Below are positions 4,171 through 61,466 of a stretch of DNA of 64,000 nucleotides, in pieces. The stretch is from Blautia sp. Marseille-P3087. GTDB lineage: Bacteria; Bacillota; Clostridia; Lachnospirales; Lachnospiraceae. Under the pieces are notes generated by a model. That model ran no database searches. It was not told the origin of the DNA and saw only the letters and a list, made by a program, of their open reading frames with translations. Made by a program: the position numbers and the translations under genes. Positions within the stretch are counted from its first letter, which is position 1; each line of letters starts with the position of its first letter. The DNA lies in contig NZ_LT635539.1 in the NCBI RefSeq assembly GCF_900120195.1, positions 1 to 64,000 on the forward strand. Reading direction: 5' to 3'.

Positions 4171-5913
4171 TTATTCCAGAGGCTGTGTGTCCTGGAGTGC
4201 CTCAAATCCTTCTTCACCGGTACGGATCTTGACAACATTTTCGATATCGTATACAAATACTTTACCGTCACCGTACTGACCGGTATGAAGAACTCTCTTG
4301 GCAGTTTCGATAACTGTTTTGACCGGTACCAGGCTGACAACGATCTCAATCTTGATCTTAGGCAGCAGGTTCATATCCATCTCAACACCACGGTAGTAGG
4401 AGCGGGCACCTTTTTGTACACCACATCCCATAACGTTTGTAATGGTGATACCGGTAACACCGATTTCATTCATTGCATGCATGAAGTCTTCAAGTTTACT
4501 CTGACGTGTGATAATAACTACTTTTGTCAGCTTGTGTACGCCTTCTTTTGGAAGTTCCGGAATTGTGTTAACAACTTCAGCCGGAGCTACATTTGCAGAA
4601 ACATTTGCAGAGGCTGCTTTCTTGGCAACGCCCATAGGAGTAGGAACAGTCATGGTGTCATGTACAACAAATCCGTCATAAGCACTTGTAAGACCATGTT
4701 CTTTGGAATCCAGACCTTCGATTTCTTCTTCGGCGGATACACGAAGGCCGATGGTATGTTTGATCGCCTGGAAAATAATTGTCATAGTAACAGCAACCCA
4801 TGCGATTGTGATGAGCATACCGACGAGCTGTACGCCGAATCCATGGAAACCGCCGCCAACCAGAAGACCTTTCCAGCCTGTGCCAGCTCCGTCAGAGAAA
4901 AGACCAACTGCAAGGGTACCAAAAGCACCGTTTAATCCGTGGACACCGACTGCACCAACCGGATCATCTACTTTAAGTACTTTGTCAATAAATTCAATAC
5001 CGAATACAACTACAAAACCAGAGATAATACCAATGATAGCAGCAGATACTGGAGATACGGTATCACATCCGGCTGTAATAGCAACAAGACCTGCAAGAGA
5101 TCCGTTCAGAGACATGGAAACATCAGGTTTTTTGTATCTTACCCATGTGATGAGCATAACGGCAACTGTCGCAACAGCAGCAGCAAGGTTGGTAGTTACA
5201 AAAATCTTACCTGCACTTACGATAGCATCGCCTTCCATGCTGACAGTAGATGCACCGTTGAATCCGAACCAGCAGAACCAGAGGATGAATACACCTAAAG
5301 CACCGATGGTAAGGTTGTGTCCCGGGATGGCTTTTGATTTGCCGCTCTTAGAGTATTTTCCGATACGAGGTCCGAGGATGAGAGCACCGACAAATGCGGC
5401 AACACCACCGACCATATGTACTGCACAGGAACCAGCAAAATCATGGAATCCCATCTGGCTGATAAAACCACCACCCCAGATCCAGTGTCCGGATACCGGA
5501 TAAACGATCAGGCTGATCAGAAAACTGTAGATACAGTAGGATGAGAACTTTGTACGCTCTGCCATAGCTCCGGATACGATCGTAGCGGATGTTGCGCAGA
5601 AGACTGTCTGGAAGATCAGGAATGCCCAGAACGGAACACCGTCAGGGAGCATTGCGGAACCATAATTAGCTTCGGTAGCAATGCCACCGATCTTTCCGAA
5701 GAATCCGTTTCCGGCTCCGAACATGATTCCGAATCCGACGATCCAGAATGTAGGAGTACCGATACAAAAGTCCATCAGGTTTTTCATAATAATGTTACCG
5801 GCGTTTTTGGCTCTGGTAAAACCAGTCTCAACCATTGCAAAACCGGCCTGCATAAAGAAGACAAGTGCGGCACCTAAAAGTACCCATATTGTGTTTACTG
5901 CTGAATAATCCAT
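4171..5913 (-). CDS. amt: Ammonium transporter with fused C-terminal PII domain
   Basis: Residues 1 to about 405 form an eleven-helix Amt channel that ends in the typical RVSAEEEIEGLDSKEHG tail. After a linker, residues about 461-580 form a complete PII (GlnB/GlnK) domain with the T-loop (KGARSYYRGVEMD) and the C-terminal nucleotide-binding signature GDGKVFVYDIENVVKIRTGEE. PII proteins close Amt channels when nitrogen is plentiful; here gate and channel are one chain. The position of the uridylylated Tyr51 of E. coli GlnB is Met512, so control must be by ATP, ADP or 2-oxoglutarate binding, not uridylylation. It lies 229 nt downstream of glnN. A hairpin sits in the leader. Confidence 0.95.
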   Translation of the reverse strand: MDYSAVNTIWVLLGAALVFFMQAGFAMVETGFTRAKNAGNIIMKNLMDFCIGTPTFWIVGFGIMFGAGNGFFGKIGGIATEANYGSAMLPDGVPFWAFLIFQTVFCATSATIVSGAMAERTKFSSYCIYSFLISLIVYPVSGHWIWGGGFISQMGFHDFAGSCAVHMVGGVAAFVGALILGPRIGKYSKSGKSKAIPGHNLTIGALGVFILWFCWFGFNGASTVSMEGDAIVSAGKIFVTTNLAAAVATVAVMLITWVRYKKPDVSMSLNGSLAGLVAITAGCDTVSPVSAAIIGIISGFVVVFGIEFIDKVLKVDDPVGAVGVHGLNGAFGTLAVGLFSDGAGTGWKGLLVGGGFHGFGVQLVGMLITIAWVAVTMTIIFQAIKHTIGLRVSAEEEIEGLDSKEHGLTSAYDGFVVHDTMTVPTPMGVAKKAASANVSANVAPAEVVNTIPELPKEGVHKLTKVVIITRQSKLEDFMHAMNEIGVTGITITNVMGCGVQKGARSYYRGVEMDMNLLPKIKIEIVVSLVPVKTVIETAKRVLHTGQYGDGKVFVYDIENVVKIRTGEEGFEALQDTQPLE

Positions 5914-54378: not shown

Positions 54379-55104
54379 ATGAAAATGAATAAAAAAATTA
54401 CCGCAATGATTCTCAGTGCTGTGATCGCAGCAGCTCCGGTGGCAGCTCCGGTTATGGAAGTGCAGACAGTTGCAGCAGCTACTACAACCACAAAAACTTT
54501 AAAAAATACATGGAGTAAAGATGGCAGATATTATTACGACCAAAATGGCAGAAAAGTTACCGGTGTAAAGAAAATTGGCAGATATACGTATGTTTTTGCA
54601 AAAAACGGCAGACTGGTGACAAACAGACCGTATTACAGATACAATTCCAGAATTTATTATAAAATTGCGAGAAATGGACGTGCGACCAGACTGTCAGCTG
54701 TCGAGACACTGGCAGCAATTCGTTATCAGAGATGTGGTAACAACCTGAAAAAGGCATTTAACTGGTCTTCTTCTCTGCGTTATGTAGCAAATTACAGAGT
54801 CGCAAGAAAAAATGCAATCTACTATGCTCAGTATGGTTTCCAGAGAGGATGTGGTGACTGTTATGTACAGGCTGCTACATTCTATCAGATGGCAAAAGTT
54901 GCAGGATATAATGCAAAATATGTGAGCGGTTATGTGGCAAAAGGTAAAGGTAAAGCGCCACATGCATGGGTTGAAATCAAAATCAGAAACAGAACTTATG
55001 TATATGATCCAAACTTCCAGAGTGAGTATGGCAAAAAGGGTTACACCGGATATCAGATCAGATACGGACAGAAGGGAACTCTGAAATATTATAAAACAAA
55101 ATAA
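54379..55104 (+). CDS. Secreted transglutaminase-like protein with wall-binding-like repeats
   Basis: A secreted protein of 241 residues: signal peptide (about 1-35), two or three aromatic/Gly repeats (GRYYYDQNGRKVTG and YTYVFAKNGRLV, about 55-90), then a transglutaminase/protease-like domain. The triad is in order and intact: Cys161 (GDCYVQAATFYQMAKVAG), His195 (PHAWVEI) and Asp210 (VYDPNF). Relatives cross-link or hydrolyse cell-surface proteins or peptidoglycan. GAGGAG precedes the start. It lies between two other secreted proteins that may be partners or substrates. Confidence 0.85.
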   Translation: MKMNKKITAMILSAVIAAAPVAAPVMEVQTVAAATTTTKTLKNTWSKDGRYYYDQNGRKVTGVKKIGRYTYVFAKNGRLVTNRPYYRYNSRIYYKIARNGRATRLSAVETLAAIRYQRCGNNLKKAFNWSSSLRYVANYRVARKNAIYYAQYGFQRGCGDCYVQAATFYQMAKVAGYNAKYVSGYVAKGKGKAPHAWVEIKIRNRTYVYDPNFQSEYGKKGYTGYQIRYGQKGTLKYYKTK

Positions 55105-55127: not shown

Positions 55128-55931
55128 ATGAAGAAAAAAATTGTAACAGTTTTAATGACAGCAATGCTCGGAAGCAGCATTTTATTTGCACAGACAGCTA
55201 TGGCAGCAGATACCGCAGAACAGACAGAAGACACTGCAAAAGCAGATGAGACTTCTGAAGAAAAAACAGAAGAATTAAAGACCATCGGTGAAAAACCGGA
55301 GAAAGAGACAGAAGGCATTCTGGATGTCAAACTCAAAAACCTGACTGGCAAAGTGATTACCGGTTTTACCATTAAGAATGAAAAAGATGAAAAGTATCCG
55401 GATAACTTTCTGAAAGAAGACGACAAGTTTGCAGCAGACGAAGAACGCGAACTGTGGTTTGATCTGAATAAAAAAGATGAAACTTCAGATGCAGAAAAGA
55501 CAGAGGATGCCAAGACAGAAGAAAATGCTGAGAATACAGAGGAAAAAGAAATTCCGAAATATAATATTCAGCTTACTTTTGAAGATGGAACAACATCTGA
55601 AATCCATACATTCCCGTTTGGGGATACAGAGGAAGCAGAACTTCATCTGGAAGGAAGCGTAGCATATCTTGTATTTGACAGCGCCAGCCAGAAGAAATCT
55701 ATTAATACTCTGGAAAACGAAAAAGCTCTGGCACCGACACCTACTGCTGCTCCGGTTGCGCAGCCGGCAACGGAAAGCTACGACAATAGCTATGATTATA
55801 ATGAAAGCTATGATTATGATAACAGTTATGATTACGATGACAACAGCTATGATGCTGCAGGATCAGATGACAGTGGATCAGATGAGGGTGGTTCCGCTGA
55901 CGGCTGTCTGGATAATGCAATTTTAAATTAA
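55128..55931 (+). CDS. Secreted acidic protein with Tyr/Asp-rich tail
   Basis: A secreted protein of 267 residues. A signal peptide (about 1-26; QTAMAAD) is followed by a Glu/Thr/Lys-rich linker. Two beta strips around ILDVKLKNLTGKVITGFTIKN and YNIQLTFEDGTTSEIHTF suggest one small domain split by an acidic insert. The tail has repeats of the type YDYDNSYDYDDNSYD and ends GCLDNAILN. I do not recognise the family. AGGAG precedes the start. It is the last gene before the strong hairpin at 55947-55982. Confidence 0.75.
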   Translation: MKKKIVTVLMTAMLGSSILFAQTAMAADTAEQTEDTAKADETSEEKTEELKTIGEKPEKETEGILDVKLKNLTGKVITGFTIKNEKDEKYPDNFLKEDDKFAADEERELWFDLNKKDETSDAEKTEDAKTEENAENTEEKEIPKYNIQLTFEDGTTSEIHTFPFGDTEEAELHLEGSVAYLVFDSASQKKSINTLENEKALAPTPTAAPVAQPATESYDNSYDYNESYDYDNSYDYDDNSYDAAGSDDSGSDEGGSADGCLDNAILN

Positions 55932-56007: not shown

Positions 56008-57519
56008 ATGTCGTTAGTATCAAATCTTTTTTTGCTGTTTGTGGCTGCATCTGTACTGGTTTATTACATAGTGCCTCATAAATGGCAGTGGCTGGTACTT
56101 CTTGTATTCAGTTACATTTATTATGTAGCGGGTGGTCCGAGATTTGTTGTGTTTATCCTGTTTTCTACGATCGTCACATGGCTTGCTGCACTTATGATCG
56201 AAAAAATGGAAGCGCAGGAAAATCATAAGACAGCACGGAATATATTGATTCTTGGCCTGATTTTAAACTTTGGTATGCTTGGGGCAGTTAAGTATACTAA
56301 TTTTGCAATCGAAAATCTGAATGCGCTGTTTCATATGAATTTAAGGGGTATGGCAATCCTGCTTCCGCTTGGAATATCATTCTATACTTTTCAGTCATCC
56401 GGCTATCTTCTGGATGTCTACTGGAAACGATGTGAGGCTGAGAAGCATCCTCTGAAATATGCATTGTTTGTATCTTTCTTCCCGCAGATCCTTCAGGGGC
56501 CGATCGGAAGATACAGCCGTCTTGCAAATCAGTTTTATGCACCACATAAATTCGAGGGAAAAAATATTGCCAGAGGGTTTGAGCGTATTTTATGGGGCTT
56601 TTTCAAAAAGATGATCCTTGCAGACTGGGCGGCGGTATTTGTAGATGAGATTTTTGCAAATCCGGATCAGTACAGCGGACTTGCACTTATTGGAATTCTT
56701 TTGTATACGCTTCAGCTGTACGCAGACTTTTCCGGAGGAATGGATGTTGTTATTGGTATTGCGTCTATGTTTGGAATCGAACTGGATGAAAACTTCAAGC
56801 GTCCGTTCTTTGCAGTTTCCGTTACAGATTTCTGGCATCGCTGGCACATCACGCTTGGTACATGGATGAAGGATTATGTTTTTTATCCGGTTACATTGTC
56901 ACGCTGGATGGGAAGTTTTAGCAAATGGGCTAAAAAAGTCTTCGGCCGAAAGACAGGTCGTACACTTCCAATCTGTCTTGCAAATATTATTGTTTTCTTT
57001 GTAGTTGGTGTATGGCATGGCGCAGCATGGAAATATATTATTTATGGTCTGTATAACGGTCTGATCATAGCGTTCAGTGGTCTTATGGCAGGTAATTATC
57101 GCAGCTGGAAAAAGAAACTTCATATCAGCGGAAAAGAAACATGGTATTATGTGTTCACGGTGATCAGGACATTTATCCTTACTGTGATCAGTATGTATTT
57201 TGACCGTCCGGACGATATGGGAGTTGCACTGCATATGATGAAACTGTCAGTGACCAGATTTAACCCGTCGCAGATTTTACAGATTCCGGCAGGCAAGCAG
57301 GGAACCGCATTCACACCATATGCGCTTCTTATCCTTGCGGTAGGATGTGTAATCTTATTTGTAGTCAGTGTACTTCAGGAGAGAGGTATGAAGATCAGGG
57401 AATCCCTGGCAAAACTTCCTCTTCCTGTTACAGTTGCAGTATATTTTTGTCTGCTGGTTTCCATCGGATTCTTTGGTTCCACAGCGGTAGCGAGAGGTTT
57501 TATTTATGCACAGTTCTAA
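56008..57519 (+). CDS. MBOAT family O-acyltransferase (DltB-like)
   Basis: A membrane acyltransferase of about 503 residues with ten or more helices. The MBOAT signature includes LPLGISFYTFQSSGYLLDVYW, PQILQGPIGRYSRL and the catalytic His337 in GVWHGAAWKYIIYG. DltB moves D-alanine from the carrier protein across the membrane onto teichoic acid; AlgI-type relatives acetylate polysaccharide. ATG 56008 has AGGAG 7 nt upstream. The end overlaps the DltD-like gene by 14 nt. Ligase and carrier-protein genes downstream make a DltB-type role most likely, with an unusual amino acid as cargo. Confidence 0.9.
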   Translation: MSLVSNLFLLFVAASVLVYYIVPHKWQWLVLLVFSYIYYVAGGPRFVVFILFSTIVTWLAALMIEKMEAQENHKTARNILILGLILNFGMLGAVKYTNFAIENLNALFHMNLRGMAILLPLGISFYTFQSSGYLLDVYWKRCEAEKHPLKYALFVSFFPQILQGPIGRYSRLANQFYAPHKFEGKNIARGFERILWGFFKKMILADWAAVFVDEIFANPDQYSGLALIGILLYTLQLYADFSGGMDVVIGIASMFGIELDENFKRPFFAVSVTDFWHRWHITLGTWMKDYVFYPVTLSRWMGSFSKWAKKVFGRKTGRTLPICLANIIVFFVVGVWHGAAWKYIIYGLYNGLIIAFSGLMAGNYRSWKKKLHISGKETWYYVFTVIRTFILTVISMYFDRPDDMGVALHMMKLSVTRFNPSQILQIPAGKQGTAFTPYALLILAVGCVILFVVSVLQERGMKIRESLAKLPLPVTVAVYFCLLVSIGFFGSTAVARGFIYAQF

Positions 57520-58486
57520 AAAAATATTAAAAACAGTTCTTGTACTTGTAATATGTGGTATCCTTCTAAAAGGGCTGGATACTGCACTTTATCCATGTAC
57601 ATTTATGAGAAATGATGTTCATGCTGTCGTCAGCGAACAGTTTGATGATATTATTCTGGGCACCTCTCATGGAAAAATGGATATTGATCCTGAAGTGATG
57701 GAAGAAATCACCGGAAGAACAGGACATAATTTATGTGTGGGCGGAGAATACGGAATTGATGCGTATTATCTTGCCCGACTGGTTGCTGAGAAACAGAATC
57801 CGAAAAGAATTATTTATGAAGTGGATCCGGGATATTTTGTTTCAGAGAAAGAAGAAGGCAACAATTACCTGCTGTTTTATCATGAATTTCCTTTTTCAAA
57901 GGCAAAATTGGAATATTTCTGGAACTCAATCGCAAAATGTAATTTCCGTACGATCCTGTTTCCCTGGTATGAATATTCTCTCAGTTATGAAGTGCCAAAA
58001 GTGAAGGAAACATTCCTTCAGAAAATAAAAAAGGATTACAGCATTACAGATCTTAAGAGCGATTCACAGAAATATCATGAGAGCGGTTTTATCGAGAGAT
58101 ATCCAGTGGACATTTCTAAACTGAAAAAGACAGATATCAAATTATATGAAGATGGCAAAGTAACTCCGTCCAATATGAAATATCTGAAGAAGCTGATAGA
58201 TTTCTGTAAAGAGAATGATATTGAATTTGTGGCAGTAACAACACCGGTTCCAATTGCGACACTGAAAGACCACAGCGACAATTACAATGCCGCATGGAAA
58301 TATTTCGGTAAATTCTTTGAGGAACAGGGTGTGGATTATATCAATTTTAATACACAATATTTTAAAGCATTCACACATAATGCAAAGGCATATACCGATT
58401 ATGACGGGCATATGAACGGAGATGCTGCAAGAGCATACTCAAAAGTCCTTGCACAGGTACTGAACCAAACAGAGTCGGCAGACTGA
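57506..58486 (+). CDS. DltD-like SGNH-fold protein
   Basis: A 326-residue protein with one N-terminal membrane helix (about 7-26) and an outer hydrolase-like domain. The presumed serine motif is LGTSHGKMDI (Ser54) and the late DYDGHMNGDAA supplies Asp300 and His302, as in SGNH/DltD folds. DltD itself has a different first motif (GSSE type), so this is a distant relative. In Dlt systems this protein takes part in the last transfer step outside the membrane. It overlaps the MBOAT gene, and the ligase gene follows after 22 nt. Confidence 0.8.
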   Translation: MHSSKKILKTVLVLVICGILLKGLDTALYPCTFMRNDVHAVVSEQFDDIILGTSHGKMDIDPEVMEEITGRTGHNLCVGGEYGIDAYYLARLVAEKQNPKRIIYEVDPGYFVSEKEEGNNYLLFYHEFPFSKAKLEYFWNSIAKCNFRTILFPWYEYSLSYEVPKVKETFLQKIKKDYSITDLKSDSQKYHESGFIERYPVDISKLKKTDIKLYEDGKVTPSNMKYLKKLIDFCKENDIEFVAVTTPVPIATLKDHSDNYNAAWKYFGKFFEEQGVDYINFNTQYFKAFTHNAKAYTDYDGHMNGDAARAYSKVLAQVLNQTESAD

Positions 58487-58508
58487 CTGAAAGAAAGAAG
58501 GGAGAAAA

Positions 58509-60029
58509 ATGAAGAAAAACATTCTGGAATATCTGGAGAAGTCGGCACAAAAATATCCGGATAAAACTGCGTTTGCAGATGAAAATACCTCCTGTACTTT
58601 TAAGGAACTGGAATGCACAGGCAGAAAGATAGGAACAGCGTTGAGCAGATATATTGCTCCGAGAAATCCGATTCCGGTTTTTATGGAAAAGAGCGTTGAG
58701 ACAATAGGTGTGTTTATGGGAGCTGTCTATGCAGGCTGTTTTTATGTTTTGATTGATACGAAACAGCCGGCCAGCCGTCTGAATCAGATTCTGGATATTC
58801 TGCAAAGTGAAGTCATCATCACATCAGAAAAATATTTAAAGGATCTGGAAAAACTGGGCTTTGAGGGGAAGGTTCTTATGCTTTCGGAGCTTAATGCTGT
58901 ACAGGAAGATCCGATAGTACTGGAGACCATCAGAAATCAGGCAGTAGATGTAGATCCGCTGTATGGTATTTTTACTTCGGGTTCTACCGGAACTCCTAAA
59001 GGTGTTGTTGTGGGACATCGTTCAGTTCTGGACTTTATTGACTGTTTTACGGAGCTGTTTAATATTACAGAAAAGGATGTTATCGGAAATCAGGCGCCGT
59101 GGGATTTTGACGTATCTGTGAAGGATATTTATTCCGGGCTGAAGACCGGTGCAACTGTACAGATTATACCGAAACAGTTATTTTCTTTCCCGACTAAACT
59201 GATCGATTTTCTGATTGAGAGAGAAGTTACTACATTAGTATGGGCAGTTTCTGCATTGTGCATTATTTCAACTCTGAATGGATTTGAATATAAGGTACCG
59301 GAAAAGATAAATAAAATTCTATTTTCAGGTGAAAGCATGCCGGTGAAGCATCTGAATATCTGGAGAAAATATCTTCCAAATACGATGTATGTAAATATTT
59401 ACGGTCCGACAGAAATTACCTGTAACTGTACATATTACGTTGTGAACAGAGAATTTCAGCCGGGTGATGTCCTTCCAATGGGAAAAGCTTTTCCGAATGA
59501 AAAAGTATTCCTTCTGGATGAAGAGAATCACCTTGTGGAAGAAAGAAATCAGAATGGAGAAGTATGTGTAACCGGAAGTGCACTTGCACTTGGATATTAC
59601 AGAAATCCGGAGCAGACAGCAAAGGCTTTTGTACAGAACCCGCTTAATGACAGATATCTGGAACCAATGTATCGTACCGGCGATCTGGCGTATTATAATA
59701 ATCTGGGTGAACTATGCTTTGCAACAAGAAAAGATTTTCAGATTAAACACATGGGACATCGGATCGAATTGGGAGAAATAGAGGCATCAATGGATAAAAT
59801 CCCTGAGATAATAAGAAGCTGCTGTCTGTTTGATCAGGGTAAAAGTAAAATTGTAGCTTTCTATGAAGGAAATGTTGAGCGAAAAGAGATCGTCAGAGCA
59901 TTAAAGCAGTATTTGCCAGCGTTTATGGTTCCAAATGCATTTCGTCAGGTGGAACAGATGCCGCTTACTAAAAACGGAAAAATCGACCGCAAAGCACTTA
60001 TGACAGAATATCAGGAGGACAACAGGTAA
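58509..60029 (+). CDS. DltA-like amino acid adenylation enzyme, altered specificity pocket
   Basis: A stand-alone adenylation enzyme (506 residues) that activates an amino acid with ATP and loads it on a carrier protein. Motifs include GIFTSGSTGTPKGVVVGH (A3, about 153-170), QAPWDFDVSVKD (A4; Asp201 for the amine), IYGPTEITCNCTYY (A5), YRTGDLAYYNNLGEL and PLTKNGKIDRKAL (A10 Lys). In D-alanine-specific DltA the A4-A5 stretch reads FCGE with a Cys that favours the D isomer; here it is LFSGE with Ser273. The amino acid is therefore unlikely to be D-alanine, though this is not proven. Its stop shares one base with the decarboxylase start. Confidence 0.88.
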   Translation: MKKNILEYLEKSAQKYPDKTAFADENTSCTFKELECTGRKIGTALSRYIAPRNPIPVFMEKSVETIGVFMGAVYAGCFYVLIDTKQPASRLNQILDILQSEVIITSEKYLKDLEKLGFEGKVLMLSELNAVQEDPIVLETIRNQAVDVDPLYGIFTSGSTGTPKGVVVGHRSVLDFIDCFTELFNITEKDVIGNQAPWDFDVSVKDIYSGLKTGATVQIIPKQLFSFPTKLIDFLIEREVTTLVWAVSALCIISTLNGFEYKVPEKINKILFSGESMPVKHLNIWRKYLPNTMYVNIYGPTEITCNCTYYVVNREFQPGDVLPMGKAFPNEKVFLLDEENHLVEERNQNGEVCVTGSALALGYYRNPEQTAKAFVQNPLNDRYLEPMYRTGDLAYYNNLGELCFATRKDFQIKHMGHRIELGEIEASMDKIPEIIRSCCLFDQGKSKIVAFYEGNVERKEIVRALKQYLPAFMVPNAFRQVEQMPLTKNGKIDRKALMTEYQEDNR

Positions 60030-61228
60030 TGTCAGAATACAGATTTATGAACCAACTGATAGAAAAAGAACATATACCGACACCGGCATATGTCTTTGAT
60101 CTGGATAAAATGAAAGAATTCGCTGAAAAAGTCAAAAGATGTCTGACCGGGAAAGCAGAAATCTGCTATGCGATGAAAGCAAATCCATTTCTGATAAAAC
60201 CGATGCTGGAGATTGTTTCTTCTCTGGAAGTATGCTCACCGGGAGAATTTCGAATTTGTGAAAGAGCCGGGATTCCAATGGAAAAAATTGTACTTTCAGG
60301 CGTATACAAAAATCCGGATGATATAGCTTATATGCTGGATACTTACGGAAACAGGGGAACTTATACAGTGGAGTCACTTCAGCATCTGGAAGTACTGAAT
60401 GATACTGCAGTCCGCCACGGAATAACCCTGTCGGTTCTGATACGTGTTACAAGTGGAAATCAGTTTGGTATTGATGAAGCGGAAATACGTAAAATAATTT
60501 CAGAAAGAGAAAAATATACAGGTATAGAGATTGAGGGAATACAGTTTTATTCCGGAACACAGAAAAGAAATCTGTCTCAGATGCAGGAAGAACTGAAACA
60601 TCTGGATACTTTTATCAGAGAGTTAGAGGAAATCGGTGGGATGGAGATCAGGACACTTGAATACGGTCCGGGATTCTTTGTACCATATTTTGTGAAAGAT
60701 AAAAGTATGCGGACAGAAGAACTTCTGGGAGAATTTGTAGAAATTCTTGATGGATTGCAGTTTAAAGGCAGGATCGTTCTTGAAATGGGCAGGTTTCTGG
60801 CTGCCTCCTGTGGATATTACATCACATCGATTGTAGATATGAAAGTAAACAAAGAACAGCCATATGTAATACTGGATGGAGGTATCAATCATTTAAATTA
60901 TTATGGACAGGCAATGGCGATGAAACATCCGTACTGCAGTCAACTGGACTTTGAAGGCCATGAAAAGACCGGGGATGAAGAACAACACTGGAACTTATGT
61001 GGTGCACTTTGTACAGTCAGTGATGTGATCGTAAAACAATTTCCACTGCGAAATCCGAAAATTTGTGATATACTGGTTTTTGAAAGAGTAGGTGCATATT
61101 CTGTAACAGAAGGAATTTATCTGTTTCTGAGTCGTCCGCTTCCGAAAATCTATTTCTGGACACAGGCAGATGGACTTCATTTAGTGCGGGATGGCATACA
61201 TACTGATGTTTTAAATTCAGAAAATTAA
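60029..61228 (+). CDS. Fold-type III PLP-dependent decarboxylase (DapDC/BtrK-like)
   Basis: A 399-residue PLP enzyme of the diaminopimelate/ornithine decarboxylase family: alanine-racemase-like barrel plus C-terminal beta domain. PLP Lys50 is in CYAMKANPF, the phosphate loop is EYGPGFFVPY (211-220), and the C-terminal site has Cys328 (ALCTVSDVI) and GAYSVTEGIYLFLSRPLP. The usual HxHIGSQ is GIQFYSGTQ, so it is not a standard lysA. Within this family BtrK decarboxylates glutamate while it is bound to an acyl carrier protein in butirosin synthesis. Here the gene lies between ligase and carrier genes, which suggests a similar carrier-linked or precursor role. Confidence 0.85.
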   Translation: MSEYRFMNQLIEKEHIPTPAYVFDLDKMKEFAEKVKRCLTGKAEICYAMKANPFLIKPMLEIVSSLEVCSPGEFRICERAGIPMEKIVLSGVYKNPDDIAYMLDTYGNRGTYTVESLQHLEVLNDTAVRHGITLSVLIRVTSGNQFGIDEAEIRKIISEREKYTGIEIEGIQFYSGTQKRNLSQMQEELKHLDTFIRELEEIGGMEIRTLEYGPGFFVPYFVKDKSMRTEELLGEFVEILDGLQFKGRIVLEMGRFLAASCGYYITSIVDMKVNKEQPYVILDGGINHLNYYGQAMAMKHPYCSQLDFEGHEKTGDEEQHWNLCGALCTVSDVIVKQFPLRNPKICDILVFERVGAYSVTEGIYLFLSRPLPKIYFWTQADGLHLVRDGIHTDVLNSEN

Positions 61229-61241
61229 AGGGAGAACTAAA

Positions 61242-61466
61242 ATGGAAAAATTAATTGAAATTCTGGAAGACATTCAGCCAGACGCAGATTATGAAAACTG
61301 TACAACTTTAATCGATGATGGTATTTTGGATTCTTTTGCAATTCTGTCTATCGTAAGTGAATTACAGGATGAATTTGACATCACGATCACTCCGGCAGAT
61401 ATTATTCCGGATAACTTTAATTCAGCAAAAGCACTCTGGGATATGGTGTGCAGATTAAAAGGCTGA
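61242..61466 (+). CDS. Acyl carrier protein (DltC-like)
   Basis: A 74-residue acidic four-helix carrier protein. Ser31 in DDGILDSFAILSIVSEL is the phosphopantetheine site; DSF for DSL or DSM is common in DltC proteins. Length is right for DltC. It carries the aminoacyl group from the ligase to the MBOAT protein. GGGAG precedes the start, 13 nt after the decarboxylase. It is the last gene of the five-gene operon and is followed by a terminator. Confidence 0.92.
   Translation: MEKLIEILEDIQPDADYENCTTLIDDGILDSFAILSIVSELQDEFDITITPADIIPDNFNSAKALWDMVCRLKG

Follow-up and report, generated by a model that had tools for sequence, protein, structure and literature searches.

Why should an operon that otherwise resembles dlt encode a decarboxylase? 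The question arises in Blautia sp. Marseille-P3087 (assembly GCF_900120195.1), where five closely packed genes specify, in order, a membrane-bound O-acyltransferase (MBOAT), an SGNH-type protein, a DltA-like ligase, a fold-type III pyridoxal phosphate (PLP) decarboxylase and a carrier protein (Table 1). They lie in the first 64,000 nucleotides of contig NZ_LT635539.1, the stretch analysed here and hereafter called the window. Gaps recomputed from the window coordinates (-14, 22, -1 and 13 nt) agree with the layout given in an initial annotation, which had been made from the letters alone and had proposed aminoacyl decoration of a surface polymer. D-alanylation of teichoic acids is known to alter surface charge and cationic-peptide resistance in Gram-positive bacteria.

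From the genes, their residues, linkage and relationships we infer the chemical steps, substrate, product and polymer of a pathway to which we give slightly better than even chances: carrier-fed envelope acylation, in which an acidic amino acid would be decarboxylated while bound to the carrier and the product exported onto a surface polymer. Below, dec denotes the operon-type PLP decarboxylase, L numbers denote fetched loci and G numbers genomes.

Distribution and linkage of the decarboxylase

Matches to dec at E 1e-12 or better occur in 13 of 64 genomes of the genus (nine true relatives, and four other members of the superfamily that score no more than 81 bits), and at E 1e-45 or better in 89 of 397 genomes of the family, about a fifth, one of which (G195) falls outside the dec clade. 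A sample of the phylum yielded matches in 8 of 398 genomes, namely this genome, another from its family, two from other families that have the complete cassette (L188, L189) and four weaker ones outside the clade. Searches of viral contigs returned no relatives, and those of named genome contigs one close relative and one distant. In all, 91 dec loci were fetched (10 genus places, 80 of the 91 family places outside this genome, and one record filed as phage); L177, which is outside the dec clade, was dropped before linkage was counted, leaving 90 loci, 59 of them flanked by 7 kb or more on either side. Neighbours were sought within 6 kb of dec on one strand, using profiles built from one to five members.

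Linkage to the ligase and the carrier is nearly complete among the 59 well-covered loci (59/59 and 57/59), with the MBOAT present in 49, the SGNH protein in 48 and all five genes in 47; across all 90 loci the corresponding counts are 86 for ligase, 86 for carrier, 73 for MBOAT and 71 for SGNH. Gene order is ligase-dec-carrier-MBOAT-SGNH in 42 of 91 loci and, as in the window, MBOAT-SGNH-ligase-dec-carrier in 13, the remainder being scattered arrangements, so that the linkage is not mere inheritance of a single order. At ten control loci with other superfamily decarboxylases we found neither ligase nor MBOAT, and a carrier once. The association thus exceeds chance, recurring as it does in rearranged loci against 0/10 controls, and the neighbourhoods of relatives bear out the suggestion of the initial annotation that dec is a genuine part of the pathway.

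The same neighbourhoods bear on a different reading, that the product of the cassette is a small molecule, as with BtrK of butirosin synthesis and VinO of macrolactam synthesis, and that MBOAT and SGNH genes are merely frequent neighbours. This would suit the ten well-covered cassettes that have no MBOAT nearby as well as the service of BtrK and VinO to antibiotics, and a Streptomyces plasmid carries an AMP-binding ligase and a decarboxylase beside a methylaspartate mutase and a polyketide synthase. We nevertheless judge it quite unlikely. MBOAT and SGNH genes accompany most cassettes; of 14 genomes without a same-strand MBOAT near the cassette, nine hold a homologue of 44-59% identity that reaches the C-terminus; and besides a regulator/kinase cluster, found in 26 loci, no flanking gene cluster occurs in more than seven of the 91. 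In G353 an MBOAT gene lies about 3.6 kb from dec on the opposite strand and was hence scored as not nearby.

In 17 of 91 dec loci (e.g. L064, L115, L166, L172) a response regulator gene lies no more than two genes away from the cassette, in several of them together with a kinase, and the regulator and kinase domains were confirmed for L064 only; the cassette may therefore respond to envelope stress or cationic peptides. L064 itself (MT836540.1), a record labelled as an unverified phage of human faecal origin, holds the whole cassette beside two-component genes and what read as genes for ABC transporters, and is probably a bacterial contig. What looks like a decayed second copy is seen in a genome of the same genus (L053, G010:C5, ~4828-5726), where a carrier, the final third of a decarboxylase and short pieces of an MBOAT remain.

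The ligase and its side-chain pocket

In DltA the methyl group of D-alanine sits among a Leu, a Met and Cys268 (PMC8972799); alignment places Val202, Lys205 and Ser273 of the window ligase at these positions. The match of Ser273 to the DltA Cys, on which the initial annotation had relied, is therefore correct, as is its view that the pocket is unlike one for D-alanine, although the more telling of the three changes is that from Met to Lys205. Among 87 dec-linked ligases position 205 is Lys in 80, Arg in five, Tyr in one and a gap in one, position 273 is Ser in 83, and the ten-residue pattern D(V/I)KxxSxCNK is found in 78. This resembles glutamate-type A-domain codes, which have Lys at position 239.

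Could the operon simply carry out D-alanylation, with the decarboxylase a bystander? It resembles dltABCD overall, and its ligase is the only protein of the genome matched by the DltA model. The scores, however, are 307 of 476 bits for PRK04813 (the DltA subfamily) and 299 of 560 for TIGR01734 (DltA), both below cutoff, as are those of other operon proteins for Dlt models (see below); the pocket differs at three places; and dec is conserved together with the ligase. We regard this alternative as very improbable, and canonical D-alanylation was rejected on the sub-cutoff model scores and the pocket residues. An AlphaFold model of the ligase from a two-row alignment was poor (predicted local distance difference test, pLDDT, 41).

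A BtrK-like decarboxylase

Searched against the PDB as a single sequence, dec matches LysA first (2p3e, 102.8 bits) and BtrK second (96.2), whereas a nine-row profile of the family places BtrK on top (180.6 bits), ahead of 6knh, titled a probable diaminopimelate (DAP) decarboxylase (161.3), and of 2p3e (152.8). BtrK, which decarboxylates a carrier-bound glutamyl group (PMC7857480), thus fits as the family precedent named by the initial annotation; the VinN-VinL-VinO and FlvN systems are closer still in anatomy. According to PMC11284099, VinO acts on carrier-bound 3-methylaspartate, VinN refuses the decarboxylated acid and FlvN takes aspartate.

Lys50 is kept in 91 of 92 operon decarboxylases (one gap) and Cys328, Asp332 and Tyr357 in all 92. 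Position 174, within GIQFYSGTQ, is Tyr or Phe in 91 of 92 (one gap), and the BtrK equivalent, GIHVYTGTQ, has Tyr at the same place; an LCT motif is likewise common to dec and BtrK. Among 40 other superfamily decarboxylases the position is His in 32 and Tyr or Phe in eight, with H-x-G-S in 18. The eight include a VinO-like enzyme, so labelled from its gene neighbours, a carrier-adjacent one (L182) and the LysA-like protein of this very genome, which has Phe. The departure from HxHIGSQ pointed out in the initial annotation is thus present and proves little alone: because the genome's own LysA-like protein is aromatic here too, the motif is only suggestive, and Tyr/Phe174 was rejected as a marker of carrier dependence.

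Two further alternatives turn on the relation of dec to LysA. That dec is an ordinary LysA of the lysine pathway, found in the operon by chance, is extremely improbable: the LysA model does match it and LysA leads the single-sequence search, but the score is 166.6 bits against a cutoff of 297.9, 36 of the 37 operon decarboxylases sampled fall into a clade of their own, and the genome has separate genes of the LysA type (265.9 bits to the same model, also under cutoff) and the NspC type (403 bits to its model, slightly under cutoff). The separate LysA-like gene and the distinct clade led us to discard a lysine-pathway role. The Glu of the CES motif, present in many LysA relatives, contacts DAP. 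In the second alternative one end of DAP would be attached to the carrier and the other end decarboxylated there, so that a lysyl-carrier and lysyl esters on the polymer would result. This would agree with the membership of dec in the LysA superfamily and, both ends of DAP bearing an amine and a carboxylate, would preserve normal alpha-loading. It has only a small chance of being right in our estimation, since the CES of many LysA relatives is LCT in dec and lysine could be loaded directly, which would make the decarboxylation wasteful.

The best NCBIfam match of dec, and also a match of the ligase, is to the exosortase A-associated pair TIGR03098/TIGR03099, at 178 of 478 and 187 of 592 bits. 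Two long frames, L098:5741-8557 (+) and L099:6716-10057 (-), join the decarboxylase, by way of a linker and what reads as a membrane-type segment, to a transglutaminase domain, an architecture that would place part of the decarboxylase protein outside the cell. A fusion of dec to the ligase, considered for such frames, was discarded in favour of this one. The extra length of the long frame in L100 is N-terminal to the decarboxylase match and has no domain match.

Acyltransferase, SGNH protein and carrier

The MBOAT scores 175 bits against TIGR04091 (DltB; cutoff 375), and its nine-row profile matches the DltB structures 6bug and 8jem. His337 is kept in 73 of 74 (one gap) and Tyr500, in the C-terminal FIYAQF, in 72 of 74, the tail being absent from L148 (contig end) and L130 (a shorter frame). 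In PMC12148441, an FXYXXF hexapeptide fused to the MBOAT of non-Dlt MBOAT/SGNH pathways is the acyl-shuttle motif; these pathways are described there as lacking a carrier and evidently using acyl-CoA, whereas the carrier-fed DltB uses a separate DltX. Since the window operon has both a carrier and a fused FIYAQF tail, its MBOAT system is, as judged from its sequence, a hybrid of the two described types, paired with a carrier like Dlt and with a fused Tyr shuttle like PatA. The non-canonical Dlt-like pathway of the initial annotation is supported, with the amendment that the MBOAT has a C-terminal, PatA-style Tyr shuttle in place of a separate DltX.

The label DltD-like fits the SGNH protein by position and by conserved residues, Ser54 in 69 of 72 (three Cys), Asp298 in 63 of 72 and His302 in 70 of 72 (two gaps). 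It finds less support elsewhere: Pfam gave no match, an eight-row profile searched against PDB sequences gave none, and the single NCBIfam match (NF047474, SGNH) is weak and below cutoff. A poor AlphaFold model (two-row alignment, pLDDT 43) shows a weak fold match to SGNH hydrolases and DltD, among unrelated folds. Ser31 of the carrier is invariant (88/88), and the carrier scores 19.8 bits against DltC models with a cutoff of 52.

Sister operons without the decarboxylase

Ligase matches at E 1e-85 or better occur in 165 of 397 family genomes, and 40 loci without dec, a non-random choice among the best-scoring ligase places of this kind, were examined for neighbours within 4.5 kb of the ligase on one strand, again using profiles of one to five members. 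They keep the carrier in 39 of 40, the MBOAT in 36 and the SGNH protein in 35, and a Tyr stands four residues from the end in all 36 MBOATs.

Some of them carry other accessory genes. An Asp/Glu-type racemase adjoins 14 of the 40 ligases, all 14 among the 16 with the pocket code DAKCAGLGMK (L240, L241, L242, L257, L261, L265 and others); the three tested belong to PF01177. A transglutaminase-like gene is near 15 of these 16 loci, several of which have a small lipoprotein-like gene downstream, and overall such genes are near 17 of the 40 dec-less loci as against 9 of the 91 dec loci. A formyltransferase adjoins seven of the 40 (L230, L231, L233, L239, L250, L255, L262; PF00551 confirmed for L230, L231, L239 and L250), six of them among the 11 with the window-type code, and in several its gene lies between ligase and carrier, the usual slot of dec. 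One locus has a GNAT acetyltransferase between ligase and carrier (L232:7864-8670), possibly a third kind of on-carrier editing. Near the 91 dec loci we found no racemase, formyltransferase or GNAT gene.

In a ligase tree of 77 rows, 37 of them dec-linked, the dec label changes four times. Dec occurs in the main DVK lineage, in the IAR lineage and, within the racemase group, in L098/L099. In the wider operon family decarboxylation would be one option among several accessory steps. Two side observations concern these loci: WbuX-like (N-acetyl sugar amidotransferase) genes lie upstream of formyltransferase-type operons at L239:7830-8861 (below cutoff) and L250:5840-6850 (sequence likeness only), and a beta-eliminating lyase/threonine aldolase-type gene (PF01212; L264:4988-6109), which could hint at another substrate, directly precedes a dec-less ligase with the window-type code.

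A proposed pathway

The pathway we favour would begin with adenylation of a dicarboxylic amino acid, most likely aspartate or glutamate, by the ligase, which would attach it to the phosphopantetheine of the 74-residue carrier through the carboxyl more distant from the amino group. The BtrK/VinO-like PLP enzyme would strip the remaining alpha-carboxylate to leave an omega-amino acyl thioester, beta-alanyl from aspartate or 4-aminobutyryl from glutamate. This acyl group would be carried across the membrane by the MBOAT onto Tyr500 of its own tail, then accepted by Ser54 of the SGNH protein and esterified to a hydroxyl of an outer polymer, creating a cationic decoration. By analogy with FlvN, aspartate to beta-alanyl would be the first choice, and glutamate to 4-aminobutyryl, by analogy with BtrK, the second. 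We favour this pathway because dec is linked across rearranged loci and its family profile is closest to BtrK, because Lys or Arg stands at position 205 of the side-chain pocket in 85 of 87 dec-linked ligases, and because His337, Tyr500, Ser54 and Ser31 are largely kept. An acidic substrate is further suggested by the Asp/Glu-type racemase of the dec-less relatives, in whose clade the dec-bearing L098/L099 nest.

A number of observations weigh against it. Usual alpha-loading by A domains would leave dec no free alpha-carboxylate. Lys205 is also found in 30 of the 40 dec-less ligases and was rejected as a marker of the decarboxylase alone; it speaks for an acidic substrate rather than for decarboxylation as such. 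The window-type code as a whole recurs in 11 of the 40 and so does not demand a decarboxylase, and L229, close kin of the window ligase, has neither decarboxylase nor substitute. The two racemases tested against NCBIfam pass the cutoff of TIGR00035 and that of cysteate racemase as well. On the side of dec itself, LysA ranks first in the single-sequence PDB search, and neither the Tyr/Phe nor the LCT motif is exclusive, the own LysA-like protein having Phe and siderophore-type relatives LCT. Lastly, no MBOAT lies near 10 of the 59 well-covered cassettes, and in five of the 14 genomes without a cassette-adjacent one the MBOAT homologues are weaker.

Five dec-linked ligases, with the code IARGCSQASK, do not have the usual Asp that binds the amino group. 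They too weigh against the favoured pathway, and they agree with a reading in which the substrate of dec is free aspartate or glutamate and the ligase takes up the omega-amino acid ready-made, as beta-alanine or 4-aminobutyrate, the decoration being the same; IdnL3 of the incednine pathway (PMC11284099) is a precedent, decarboxylation of beta-glutamate yielding the amino acid that is then loaded. The closest PDB relative of the dec family profile is the carrier-dependent BtrK, however, and the Lys or Arg of the pocket would be out of place for a substrate with an ammonium at its far end, so that we consider this alternative unlikely.

Returning to decarboxylation on the carrier, the sister operons invite a broader and more tentative proposal, which we place a little short of an even chance: an undescribed, modular family of surface-decoration systems in which a carrier-bound, mostly acidic amino acid is edited and then exported by an MBOAT with a Tyr shuttle and an SGNH partner. 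The edit would be decarboxylation here and N-formylation or N-acetylation in sister operons, or else the amino acid would come from a racemised pool.

Features of the window and its genome

The genome encodes a single LtaS-size sulfatase-family protein (679 residues), which makes a lipoteichoic-type polymer possible. Two further MBOATs have no ligase or carrier in the 14-15 kb stretches around them. The transglutaminase-like neighbour of the operon (Table 1) might act on an amine decoration; the secreted protein that follows it has no match in Pfam or NCBIfam at E 0.001. Elsewhere in the window (18 kb-30 kb and 48 kb-53 kb), reading of the translations alone suggested genes for sortase- and pilin-like proteins as well as a signal-peptidase/TasA-like cluster.

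Table 1. Coordinates of the operon, of diagnostic sites in its products and of upstream genes in the window.
Feature	Position	Strand	Match or remark
Secreted transglutaminase-like protein, two genes upstream of operon	54379..55104	+	PF01841, E 1.6e-10
Secreted protein directly upstream of MBOAT	55128..55931	+	Homologues in L045, L046, L048, L106
MBOAT acyltransferase, 503 aa	56008..57519	+	PF03062, E 3.1e-20; alternative upstream TTG start 55990
C-terminal FIYAQF of MBOAT, acyl-shuttle motif FXYXXF including Tyr500	57499..57516	+	
SGNH-type, DltD-like membrane-anchored transferase, 326 aa (Ser54, Asp298, His302)	57506..58486	+	
DltA-like adenylating ligase, 506 aa	58509..60029	+	PF00501, E 4.2e-55
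Lys205 codon of ligase (A-domain code position 239; DltA = Met)	59121..59123	+	
Ser273 codon of ligase (DltA = Cys268)	59325..59327	+	
Fold-type III PLP decarboxylase (dec), 399 aa, BtrK-like	60029..61228	+	PF02784 (Orn_Arg_deC_N)/PF00278
GIQFYSGTQ of dec, Tyr/Phe where most superfamily members compared have His	60536..60562	+	
Carrier protein, 74 aa, phosphopantetheine Ser31	61242..61466	+	PF00550 (PP-binding)

Comparison with known systems

Searches of the open-licence part of PubMed Central, judged by titles and abstract openings, brought up no account of a decarboxylase-bearing Dlt-like operon or of its sister operons. The literature we drew on gives two chemistries for MBOAT-SGNH pathways, D-alanine supplied by a carrier and acetyl supplied by CoA. 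We regard the window operon as a new form of MBOAT-SGNH envelope acylation and perhaps a new modular branch of it. If the proposed pathway is correct, editing of cargo on its carrier would bring omega-amino acyl esters into bacterial surface chemistry, and the Dlt carrier and the PatA-type fused shuttle, described so far in different systems, would be combined in one; if the family is modular, bacteria would gain interchangeable cationic, neutral or anionic decorations.

With the Dlt pathway (DltA, DltB, DltC, DltD, DltX) the operon shares a ligase, a carrier, an MBOAT and an SGNH-type protein in one operon, the pairing of MBOAT with carrier and the Tyr acyl-shuttle motif. It differs in having a decarboxylase, in a Val202/Lys205/Ser273 pocket where Dlt has Leu/Met/Cys, in a shuttle motif fused to the MBOAT rather than borne by a separate DltX, and in ligase, MBOAT and carrier scores below the Dlt model cutoffs. 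The PatA-type MBOAT-SGNH acyltransferases have the same C-terminal FXYXXF on the MBOAT, an SGNH partner and the catalytic-type residues that are kept here, but are reported (PMC12148441) to use acyl-CoA and to be carrier-less, unlike the window operon with its carrier and ligase.

The decarboxylase finds its parallels in soluble pathways. BtrI-BtrK of butirosin synthesis shares with the proposed pathway a fold-type III PLP decarboxylase that acts on a carrier-bound amino acid, with YTGTQ and LCT motifs in BtrK, which serves a soluble antibiotic pathway; the butirosin amino acid is loaded by an ATP-grasp ligase, in contrast to the DltA-like ligase here. VinN-VinL-VinO and FlvN, which provide beta-amino acid starter units of macrolactams, have an adenylating enzyme, a free-standing carrier and on-carrier decarboxylation in common with the proposed pathway, although they feed a polyketide synthase after aminoacyl protection, and the passages of PMC11284099 consulted describe no MBOAT or SGNH protein with them. 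The exosortase A-associated pair, finally, unites the same ligase and decarboxylase enzyme types in another envelope-related system; the window proteins score far below its cutoffs, and both models are 'hypothetical equivalog' models with no stated substrate.

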